Assembly (NCBI GenBank): GCA_947493255.1
Contig: CANLQK010000007.1
Span: forward strand, 1-64,000
DNA length: 64,000 nucleotides
Origin: an uncultured Paracoccaceae bacterium
GTDB lineage: Bacteria > Pseudomonadota > Alphaproteobacteria > Rhodobacterales > Rhodobacteraceae
Direction: 5' to 3'
Shown: positions 47,430-51,799 of the stretch, one piece after another
How positions within the stretch are numbered: position 1 is the stretch's first letter
How the letters are laid out: the number at the start of each line of letters is the position of its first letter
Made by a program: the position numbers and the translations under genes
The notes under the pieces: model-generated
What the model was told of the DNA's origin: nothing
Databases searched by the model: none
What the model saw: the letters and a program-made list of their open reading frames with translations, nothing else

Positions 47430-48392
47430 ATGGCATTTCGCGCATCGCACCTTTTGGGCATCGAACATCTCCACCCCACGGAAATAACGACTTTGTTGGA
47501 TTTGGCGGACCGTTACGCCGAAGATAACCGGCTGGGTCGCCCACACCGTGACGTGCTGGAGGGGCTGACCCAAATCAATATGTTTTTCGAAAACTCGACC
47601 CGTACACAGGCGAGTTTTGAAATTGCTGGGAAACGTTTGGGGGCCGATGTGATGAACATGGCGATGCAGGCCAGTTCCATCAAGAAGGGCGAAACGCTGA
47701 TCGATACAGCCCTAACCTTGAACGCCATGCACCCTGACCTGTTGGTCGTGCGCCACCCTAATTCTGGTGCGGTGGATCTTTTGTCCCAAAAGGTGAACTG
47801 CGCAGTACTGAATGCAGGGGACGGTAAACACGAACATCCCACACAAGCACTGTTAGACGCGCTGACAATCCGTCGTGCCAAGGGCCGTTTGCACCGCCTG
47901 TCGATCGCAATTTGCGGCGACGTTGCCCATAGTCGCGTGGCGCGTTCGAACATCATGTTGCTGGGTAAAATGGAAAACCGCGTGCGGCTTGTTGGCCCTC
48001 CGACCTTGCTGCCATCTGGCATTGAACATTTCGGCGTCGAGGTTTTTCATGACATGCGCGAAGGTTTGAAAGACGTCGACGTCGTGATGATGTTGCGTCT
48101 TCAAAAAGAACGCATGGATGGTGGGTTTATCCCGTCCGAACGCGAATATTTCCATCGCTACGGGTTGGACGCAGAGAAATTAAGCCATGCCAAAGACGAC
48201 GCAATCGTCATGCACCCAGGGCCAATGAACCGCGGCGTTGAAATCGACGGCACAATCGCGGATGACATCAACCGCAGCGTTATCCAGGAACAGGTCGAGA
48301 TGGGCGTCGCCGTCCGTATGGCTGCAATGGATCTTCTGGCGCGTAATTTGAAGGCCAAACGCGGTGCAAAAGCAGCAGGGGTTATGGTTTGA
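47430..48392 (+). CDS. pyrB: Aspartate carbamoyltransferase catalytic subunit
   Basis: [54 protein letters not shown]. Confidence 0.97.
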
Positions 48393-48802
48393 CCAAAGGC
48401 CTTCCTCCGCTTGAAGACGATGAAACCGTATTGCACGACCATGTGCCGAGCATGCGGAAATTTCGCAAAGCGGCCTTGATTGCTATCGCAATCACGCTCG
48501 TCCCAACGGTGGTCTTTGCTGCGCTTTGGCCAGACACTGGCGCAGCTGTTGTGCCGCTTTTGTTAACCTGCGTTGTGTTGGTGCAAGAACGGCTAACATT
48601 GGGTCGCCACCGTGCGTGGGTCACAAACCAAAGGGTGATCTTGCAAGGTGGACGTGACGCGCCGCTGTGGGATGTTGCAGGGGTTACGCCGCGCTGGGCT
48701 GGCGTTATCCTCGATGGGGTCGATCTCCGGCTTGCTTATGTGGCCGACGTACAGGTTTTGCGCGATGTCATTACGTTCGCCCAATCAAAAGGTGACACAT
48801 GA
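48389..48802 (+). CDS. Small membrane protein, bacterial-PH-like; first of three ORFs between pyrB and pyrC-like
   Basis: TTG start overlapping the pyrB TGA (TTGA); two TM segments then [25 protein letters not shown]. Confidence 0.75.
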
Positions 48803-49341
48803 CTGACGTTGTTGGCGAATACGAACATGGGGTCGTGCGGGTCTTCCTTCTCGACGCCGGGTTGCGTGCCGAAATTCAAGAAACAGGGGCCTACGATGCG
48901 TTCTGCACGGCGCTGGGCATCACGGGTATCAACGCCGACGACGTGCTACAGCTCGAAACGCTGTCGCTGGAAGATATGCCATTGGCAGATTTTTTGCAGT
49001 CGGGATATGACGCCAACGAAGATGACCTGACCGAGTATCAGTTCCAGCTCGACGCAGTCAGCGACAGTGATGCAATGGTTTTGATCGTTCGCTCTGGTGC
49101 GTTTGTTGAACGCCCAGCGACGTTCGCCACCGAAGGCCCCGCCCGCCTGATCGCCACGCTGCGCGAACCCGATTTCGAGGTCCCAATGACACCGCTGCCG
49201 AACCCAGACCCAACAGCGGTTCTTGAAGATGTCCCCGCAAAAAAGAAACCATCAGACGCCGCAATGTCGGGTCGCATCGCGACCATCGCGTTGTTGCTGA
49301 TGGCGTTGCTGGTTTGGTTGATGATTAGGATTGCTGGATGA
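48799..49341 (+). CDS. Hypothetical acidic protein with C-terminal TM anchor
   Basis: ATGA overlap both sides; soluble acidic domain, C-terminal MSGRIATIALLLMALLVWLMIRIAG. Confidence 0.78.
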   Translation: MTDVVGEYEHGVVRVFLLDAGLRAEIQETGAYDAFCTALGITGINADDVLQLETLSLEDMPLADFLQSGYDANEDDLTEYQFQLDAVSDSDAMVLIVRSGAFVERPATFATEGPARLIATLREPDFEVPMTPLPNPDPTAVLEDVPAKKKPSDAAMSGRIATIALLLMALLVWLMIRIAG

Positions 49342-49880
49342 CGCAAACAACACAGCCCTCTGAATGGAAAAATATCTTGTCTGAAGACGAGAATATCCTT
49401 TGGCAGGGTGCGCCGGATAGATCGTTTCACGTTCCGCCAAAGAACCTTTTCCTTGTCATCTTTGGTTTGTTCTTCGCGGGTTTCGCATTGTTTTGGATGA
49501 CGATGGCCTACAGTGCCGGCGGAACATTCTGGATGTTCGGGCTTCTGCATTTTTCCGTTGGTGTCGGGATCATCGCGATTGCCCTATTTGGTGGGACGTA
49601 TAAGCGCCGTCACACGTTTTACACGCTTACAGACCAAAACGCCTATATCGCGACGAACTTGCCAATCGTCGGCAGAAAGCTGAACACGTTTCGGATAACA
49701 GATACTACGCCGATTTCTTATGCACCTGGGCATCTCGCAACGGTTCACTTTGCTACAAAACAGGTGCGTACCAAGAACGGGTATCGCACAGTTGATATAG
49801 GGTTTGAACGCATCGAGGATGGCGGCGACGTGTATCGGTTGATACGTCAACTCCAAGACCCAAAAGAAGGGGACATGTAA
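49338..49880 (+). CDS. Membrane protein, bacterial-PH-like
   Basis: SEDENILWQGAPDRSF, two TM segments, HTFYTLTDQNAYIATNLPIVGRKLNTFRI. Confidence 0.78.
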   Translation: MTQTTQPSEWKNILSEDENILWQGAPDRSFHVPPKNLFLVIFGLFFAGFALFWMTMAYSAGGTFWMFGLLHFSVGVGIIAIALFGGTYKRRHTFYTLTDQNAYIATNLPIVGRKLNTFRITDTTPISYAPGHLATVHFATKQVRTKNGYRTVDIGFERIEDGGDVYRLIRQLQDPKEGDM

Positions 49881-49926: not shown

Positions 49927-51198
49927 ATGCGCACTCTTTTTGAAAACGCCCGACTGATTGATCCCGAAGCAGGGACAGACACGCTGGGGTCCCTGATGGT
50001 TGAAGACGGTTATATCGTCGATGTTGGCGGAAAAGCGGACCAAGTGATCGACTGTCGCGGTAAATGTCTTGCGCCGGGTATTGTAGATATCGGCGTGAAA
50101 GTGTCCGAACCGGGCGAACGCCACAAAGAGAGTTTCGCCTCTGCTGGTCGTGCTGCGGTGGCTGGCGGGGTGACCACAATGGTAACACGTCCCGACACAG
50201 ACCCGGCCATCGACACGCCAGAAACATTGGAATTTGTCGAACGCCGCGCGTCAATCGATGCCGCCGTGAATGTTTTGCCGATGGCGGCCCTGACGAAAGG
50301 GCGCGATGGCCGCGAGATGACCGAGATTGGTTTTCTGATGGATGCAGGCGCGATTGCCTTCACAGATTGTGACCGCGTGGTCACCGACACAAAAGTGTTC
50401 ACACGTGCGCTGACCTACGCCAAATCTTGCGGCGCCCTGGTGATTGGCCATGTGCAGGAACCGGGATTGTCGAAAGGTGCGGCAGTCACATCCGGGAAAT
50501 TCGCGTCGCTACGGGGCTTGCCGGGTGTGTCTCCGATGGCTGAACGCATGGGCGTGGACCGCGATGTTGCCTTGTTGGAAATGACAGGCGCGGCCTATCA
50601 TATTGACCAGATCACAACAGCACGTGCGCTGCCAGCACTGGAACGCGCGAAAGCCAATGGGCTTAACATCACTGCGGGGGTCGGCATCCACCACCTGACG
50701 CTGAACGAACTCGACGTGGCCGACTACCGGACGTTCTTTAAACTTAAGCCACCGCTGCGGTCCGAAGACGACCGGCTGGCTGTGGTTGAAGCGGTCGCAA
50801 CTGGTGTGATCGATATCATTTCGTCTATGCATACGCCGCAAGACGAAGAGTCTAAAAGGTTGCCATATGAGGAAGCTGCAAGCGGGGCGGTGGCCCTTGA
50901 AACGTTGCTGCCTGCGGCGCTTCGATTGGTCCATGCAGGACATATGGACCTGCCACAACTGTTCCGCGCGCTTTCGCTAAACCCTTCAAAACGTTTGGGT
51001 TTGAGCTGCGGTCGCCTGACCGTTGGGGCGCCGGCGGATTTGGTTTTGTTCGACCCAGATGCAAGCCTGAAGCTGGATCGTTTCAAGCTTAAGTCGAAGT
51101 CCAAAAACACGCCATTTGACGGGGCTATGTTGCAAGGTAAGGTGATCGCGACCTATGTGGGTGGCGTGAACAAGACTGAAAGCCTGACCGATGCCTGA
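49927..51198 (+). CDS. Dihydroorotase-like protein, probably non-catalytic (PyrC'/PyrX type)
   Basis: Full-length DHOase homology (GGVTTMVTRPDTDP, HHLTLNELD, KPPLRSEDDRLA) but HxH reads GVK, the HVS position reads QIT, and ATDHAPH reads SSMHTPQ. Confidence 0.85.
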   Translation: MRTLFENARLIDPEAGTDTLGSLMVEDGYIVDVGGKADQVIDCRGKCLAPGIVDIGVKVSEPGERHKESFASAGRAAVAGGVTTMVTRPDTDPAIDTPETLEFVERRASIDAAVNVLPMAALTKGRDGREMTEIGFLMDAGAIAFTDCDRVVTDTKVFTRALTYAKSCGALVIGHVQEPGLSKGAAVTSGKFASLRGLPGVSPMAERMGVDRDVALLEMTGAAYHIDQITTARALPALERAKANGLNITAGVGIHHLTLNELDVADYRTFFKLKPPLRSEDDRLAVVEAVATGVIDIISSMHTPQDEESKRLPYEEAASGAVALETLLPAALRLVHAGHMDLPQLFRALSLNPSKRLGLSCGRLTVGAPADLVLFDPDASLKLDRFKLKSKSKNTPFDGAMLQGKVIATYVGGVNKTESLTDA

Positions 51199-51799
51199 GA
51201 TTGTAAACACCATTGCGACCTTCGGCATTTGGGCTGTCATTGCCTACCTGATCGGGTCGATCCCCTCGGGTGTGATCATTGCGCGCGTGATGGGGTTGGG
51301 CAATTTGCGCGAAATTGGTTCGGGCAACATCGGGGCCACAAACGTACTGCGCACGGGGTCCAAAAAGGCCGCCGCGTCTACCCTTCTACTTGATATGGGC
51401 AAGGGGCTCGCGGCGGTGTGGTTGGCGTCGGCATTTGCTGGACCGGACGTGGCGCAAGTGGCTGGTTTTGTTGTTCTAATTGGCCATTGTTTTCCTGTTT
51501 GGTTGGGGTTTCGGGGTGGCAAGGGTGTCGCCACATTCTTTGGGGTTCTGTTTGGCCTTGCTTGGCCTTTGGGGATCATCGCGGCCGTCGCATGGCTTGG
51601 CACTGCGGCGCTCTTTCGGATCTCTTCATTGGCGGCCTTGGTGGCAAGCCTGAGCGCCCCCGTCGCGGCCTATTTCATCGGACCACAAACCGTGTTCTTT
51701 TTGATGGTTTGCCTGTGTTCGCTGATTTTCCTGCGCCACCGCGGCAACATTCAGCGGTTGGTTGATGGCACTGAGACCAAGATAGGGTCGAAGGGTTAA
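51191..51799 (+). CDS. plsY: Glycerol-3-phosphate acyltransferase PlsY
   Basis: AYLIGSIPSGVIIARVMGLGNLREIGSGNIGATNVLRTG, GHCFPVWLGFRGGKGVATFFG. Confidence 0.96.
   Translation: MPEIVNTIATFGIWAVIAYLIGSIPSGVIIARVMGLGNLREIGSGNIGATNVLRTGSKKAAASTLLLDMGKGLAAVWLASAFAGPDVAQVAGFVVLIGHCFPVWLGFRGGKGVATFFGVLFGLAWPLGIIAAVAWLGTAALFRISSLAALVASLSAPVAAYFIGPQTVFFLMVCLCSLIFLRHRGNIQRLVDGTETKIGSKG

Follow-up and report, generated by a model that had tools for sequence, protein, structure and literature searches.

A pseudo-dihydroorotase linked to pyrB in Rhodobacteraceae, a probable structural subunit of aspartate transcarbamoylase

A marine-type Rhodobacteraceae bacterium carries a gene annotated as dihydroorotase at 49927-51198 (+) of the 64,000-nucleotide stretch of DNA analyzed here (the window), and the locus raises the question of whether its product is still a dihydroorotase (DHOase) and, if not, what it is retained for. 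The open reading frame starts with ATG, contains zero internal stops and encodes 423 amino acids. Profile searches and structure comparison identify the product as a type-I DHO homologue over its full length, and on combined profile, structure-relative and model evidence we refer to it as a pseudo-dihydroorotase (pDHO; also PyrC' or PyrX). General protein-family models label it dihydroorotase. The top-scoring one, NF006558 (PRK09059, a dihydroorotase equivalog), gives 498 bits, under its curated cut-off of 645, and the subfamily-domain model TIGR00857 (pyrC_multi), which is blind to catalytic residues, gives 316.6 bits, above its curated cut-off of 279.05. The closest solved relative is the DHO of A. 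aeolicus (3d6n, E 1.9e-77). The AlphaFold2 model, for which 40 family sequences were used (pTM 0.88), has as its top PDB match 3d6n_A, the A. aeolicus DHO complexed with aspartate transcarbamoylase (ATCase), with a TM of 0.87. The predicted fold is intact.

In A. aeolicus DHO, the alpha-site zinc ligands are His61, His63 and Asp153, with Asp305 nearby, while His180 and His232 form the beta-site, and an H180A/H232A double mutant stays active (PMC3880350). Residue-level alignment of pDHO to this enzyme places G56, K58 and C148 at the positions of the three alpha-site ligands and M301 at that of D305. At the beta-site H232 is replaced by Q228, and H180 is retained as H175. Five of the six metal ligands of type-I DHO (HxH, Asp, His, His, Asp) are replaced, and the sole one retained, H175, is one that is dispensable in A. 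aeolicus. The alpha-site loss is decisive because in A. aeolicus the alpha-site alone suffices for catalysis (PMC3880350), and with G56, K58, C148 and M301 at its positions this essential site is wholly gone. The preliminary description had quoted three motifs, PGIVDIGVKVSEPG, YHIDQITT and SSMHTPQ, which read as given, and had proposed that the metal ligands were lost. The alignment bears this out more strongly than was claimed: the three segments are indeed lost, but the loss of the D153 segment and the retention of H180 had been overlooked. Judging from these residues, pDHO lacks the zinc site and almost certainly catalyses nothing.

The remains of the active site can be followed along the gene, all on the forward strand. 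The one-time HxH zinc motif is now G56-V57-K58 (50092..50100); G56 is invariant among the 118 core family sequences and K58 is found in 117 of them. By alignment, the one-time ligand D153 is now C148 (50368..50370) and the beta-site H232 is now Q228 (50608..50610; Q228 in 115/118). The retained beta-site histidine, H175 (50449..50451), is invariant (118/118). The one-time catalytic loop, ATDHAPH, has become SSMHTPQDEESKRLPY (50821..50868), with M301 for D305 and Q305 for H309; Q305 occurs in 117/118 core sequences. Further positions of A. aeolicus DHO, which we take to be those contacting the substrate, are replaced as well. The arginine R65 is now S60 (50104..50106), a position occupied by C, S or G in the core family set, and the asparagine N95 is now D90 (50194..50196), with D in 118/118. 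N278 has become K274, and H309 is the residue replaced by Q305 in the catalytic loop.

The gene for the aspartate carbamoyltransferase catalytic chain, pyrB, is found upstream of pDHO (47430..48392, +), and scores above cut-off with both NF002032 (405.9 bits) and TIGR00670 (299 bits). Its active-site motifs, including STRT and HPTQ, are kept in an alignment to the B. subtilis ATCase. It is the only ATCase of the genome, the one further match (141.9 bits) being under the cut-off. There are zero matches to TIGR00240 (pyrI) in the genome, which is 99.78% complete, and the absence of a PyrI chain excludes a class B ATCase. Of 80 named family loci, 78 have a co-oriented pyrB upstream of pDHO, as do 152 of 157 stretches from across the Alphaproteobacteria. 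Outside Rhodobacteraceae the two genes abut, with a gap of less than 110 bases in 146 of 152 class stretches. Within the family at least one gene lies between them in 75 of the 78 named loci, and the operon argument is weakened because one to several genes part pyrB from pDHO in the window and in most relatives. As a neighbour control we used plsY, encoding glycerol-3-phosphate acyltransferase (51191..51799, +; PF02660, 177.9 bits), which overlaps the end of pDHO. Across 154 genomes the distance matrices of pyrB and pDHO correlate at 0.78, compared with 0.54 and 0.53 for each with plsY, and none of 2000 permutations matched the partial correlation of 0.69; a mirror-tree correlation of this kind may be inflated by shared ancestry or by joint replacement of the gene pair. 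The co-variation supports a physical partnership of PyrB and pDHO, short of proof.

The protein is very probably a non-catalytic DHO homologue that acts as a structural subunit of a class A2 ATCase. This role had already been suggested in the preliminary description, and purifying selection (see below), the linkage to pyrB, the co-variation, the lack of pyrI and the known precedents all fit it; from these we infer binding to PyrB. Most likely, pDHO dimers would link PyrB trimers to form a dodecamer of the kind seen in A. aeolicus and P. aeruginosa, and PyrB would depend on pDHO for its assembly or sustained activity. Carbamoyl aspartate produced by PyrB would be cyclised by a separate type-II PyrC.

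The most conserved stretches of pDHO within the family are EPGERHKE, which follows the former HxH, and PQDEESKR, which follows the former DHAPH. The monomer model has its lowest confidence in these very loops, at 61-66 and 303-318, with pLDDT < 50 in the latter. In A. aeolicus DHO, loops near the active site are disordered when the protein is free and ordered in the complex with ATCase (PMC3880350). Because the former active site has a conserved rim that is modelled with low confidence in the monomer and has counterparts that become ordered upon ATCase binding in A. aeolicus, the loops of this rim are probably kept as an interface with PyrB. A near-invariant rim around a dead active site thereby offers a testable PyrB interface. 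A re-used pocket could also be envisaged, in which a small ligand such as a nucleotide or carbamoyl aspartate is bound through G56, K58, D90, H175, Q228, M301 and Q305 and pDHO regulates ATCase in addition to serving as a scaffold. The near-fixation of six of these residues (115/118 to 118/118 core sequences, as given above) is in keeping with such a pocket. However, contact with PyrB accounts equally well for the conservation of the rim, and nucleotide inhibition in P. aeruginosa has been ascribed to destabilisation of the complex and not to allostery (PMC7053772). We consider a regulatory pocket quite unlikely.

If pDHO is a structural subunit, a functional DHOase was expected elsewhere in the genome, as the preliminary description had predicted, and a candidate was found. 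A single type-II PyrC is encoded on another contig, C8 (TIGR00856, 427.6 bits, cut-off 292.95). Its metal and substrate motifs, WHLHLRDG, VKLYPAGATTN, VHGEVTD, EHVTT and GTDSAPH, are intact in comparison with a solved bacterial DHOase, and it is predicted to be active. A second close type-I copy was also considered as the active DHOase; the sole other match proved to be a dihydropyrimidinase/D-hydantoinase (TIGR02033, 552.5 bits, above cut-off). A type-II PyrC is present in 146 of 151 family genomes. Two of the five negative genomes (G016 and G049) encode a PRK09060-type dihydroorotase above cut-off instead. In G036, G103 and G142, which carry a degenerate or presumed degenerate pDHO, no active DHOase was recognised by type-II and PRK09060 profile searches, a point against the structural-subunit reading. 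In one further family genome the type-II PyrC match falls in two adjoining pieces (G008:C3:890595-891619), which suggests a frameshift or sequencing error. That the genome encodes an intact type-II PyrC alongside pDHO also speaks against the idea that pDHO still has dihydroorotase activity, either through an unorthodox metal site or by a metal-free mechanism. Retention of H175 and of the overall fold, together with a score above the TIGR00857 cut-off, would agree with residual activity. However, the counterparts of H61, H63, D153 and D305 and of the substrate residues R65, N95 and H309 are all replaced, making this idea very improbable.

The degenerate site is a family trait, and 149 of 151 sampled family genomes carry pDHO. 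The nearest named relatives of the window protein are, at 93%, that of an uncultured Rhodobacteraceae bacterium and, at 87%, that of an Octadecabacter MAG. The signature GKCHQM is exact in 100 of 125 distinct Rhodobacteraceae sequences, and in 124 none of the residues corresponding to H61, H63, D153 and D305 is kept, which excludes chance or sequencing error. Where computable, dN/dS against relatives is 0.03-0.085, indicating purifying selection, and these values are rough given nearly saturated synonymous sites. The core family set has 91 invariant columns out of 423. Loss of catalytic residues by itself would fit a decaying pseudogene, but pDHO is full length, and its low dN/dS, its invariant columns and its presence nearly throughout the family leave that reading with a negligible probability, and we rejected it.

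The interval between pyrB and pDHO contains genes for three proteins in the window. The middle one, at 48799..49341 (+), encodes a tail-anchored membrane protein of an unknown family, with a globular domain of about 125 amino acids and a C-terminal helix (153-179) that is probably transmembrane (model pLDDT 92). No Pfam or NCBIfam family matched this fast-evolving protein, and a fold search with its model returned no meaningful match (best E 0.22, TM about 0.2). Matches occur in 88 of 151 family genomes, and 88 of the 89 best matches listed precede pDHO in the same orientation, with a median gap of 397 bases. The genes on either side (48389-48802 and 49338-49880, both +) encode small membrane proteins, and the product of the latter shows a weak match, under the cut-off, to the photosynthetic assembly protein PuhB (NF040894, E 5.6e-7). 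In relatives the interval holds 0 to 6 genes, with six in Shimia (L264). From its position, the protein at 48799-49341 is a possible accessory of the ATCase complex. That it is a third, Rhodobacteraceae-specific component of the PyrB-pDHO complex, tethering it to the cytoplasmic membrane or regulating ATCase, is conceivable but unlikely, and the other inserted membrane proteins may perhaps share in such a function. Vertical inheritance of gene order would equally yield the adjacency with pDHO.

We extended the comparison to Alphaproteobacteria with a sample drawn from matches to the window pDHO, so that the counts describe homologues of this protein and not all DHOases of the class. Most pyrB-linked homologues have lost metal ligands, by many different replacements. 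Since this applies to all but a few of those sampled, inactivity is apparently the rule across Alphaproteobacteria and not a curiosity of Pseudomonas. These genomes usually encode a DHOase of PRK09060 type or type II, and the PRK09060 type scores above cut-off in 135 of 290. A type-II PyrC as universal backup, true in Rhodobacteraceae, was rejected for the class, where it is above cut-off in just 74 of 290 genomes.

Among class genomes, no alternative DHOase was recognised in six of seven with a metal-retaining homologue (five or six ligands), compared with 8 of 161 others (Fisher p 7e-7). However, the association comprises only two phylogenetically independent contrasts (sign test p 0.5, not significant), and for this reason we do not rely on it; the link between retention of the metal site and lack of another DHOase is suggestive only. 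Four of the eight have an alternative under the cut-off, of type II in G314 and G379 and of PRK09060 type in G332 and G247. The type-II and PRK09060 searches recognised no active DHOase in G399, G248, G385 and G187, whose pDHO is degenerate or presumed degenerate. In these four genomes, as in the three Rhodobacteraceae above (G036, G103 and G142), the pattern may reflect an assembly gap or an unrecognised DHOase.

Some pyrB-linked homologues in the class depart from the common pattern. Those at L206 and L209 (G236, G435) and at L106 and L192 (G232, G376) read QHDHHD, in which Gln replaces the first HxH histidine and five ligands are kept, and their host genomes have no other recognised DHOase. 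These proteins are possibly active with an altered ligand. In a quick tree, three intact HHDHHD sequences (L120, L165 and L186, from G364, G209 and G172) are nested among inactive relatives, and such an intact clade may have arisen through repeated loss, regain or transfer.

For Rhodobacteraceae, metabolic models that assign the DHOase reaction to pDHO, or that count two isozymes, are probably wrong. The type-II pyrC would be expected to be the only DHOase gene of the family, and pDHO to behave as a pyrimidine gene like pyrB.

A literature search that covered few subscription journals found no paper on the Rhodobacteraceae pDHO. However, related systems are described elsewhere. The class A2 ATCases combine an active PyrB with an inactive pDHO, and inactive DHO subunits required by ATCase are established in Pseudomonas (PMC7053772). 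The PyrC' of P. aeruginosa and P. putida resembles pDHO in being a type-I DHO homologue that is inactive and pairs with PyrB, but it is gammaproteobacterial, and its activity, stoichiometry and dodecamer have been measured, whereas the window protein is likened to it by description (PMC7053772). Unlike Pseudomonas, the window has membrane-protein genes between pyrB and pDHO. A second counterpart is PyrX of S. meliloti (smc01361), whose disruption causes pyrimidine auxotrophy and which has been proposed to be an inactive DHO needed by PyrB (PMC5929573). Like pDHO it is alphaproteobacterial, adjoins pyrB and coexists with an essential PyrC encoded elsewhere; it belongs to another alphaproteobacterial lineage, and the likeness is again by description (PMC5929573). 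The DHO of the A. aeolicus DHO-ATC dodecamer (3d6n, 4bjh; PMC3880350) shares its fold and PyrB partner family with pDHO but belongs to class A1: its zinc alpha-site is intact and it is an active enzyme. The pseudo-DHO domain of fungal Ura2 similarly has a DHO fold without zinc ligands and is joined to ATCase (PMC7053772), although it is part of a multifunctional eukaryotic protein and not a separate bacterial subunit. Like the class A2 subunits, pDHO is a full-length type-I DHO homologue that has lost the zinc and substrate residues and is linked to pyrB, in a genome with a separate type-II PyrC, as identified by sequence, and no PyrI. On these features the window pDHO fits the already known class A2-type inactive DHO subunits.
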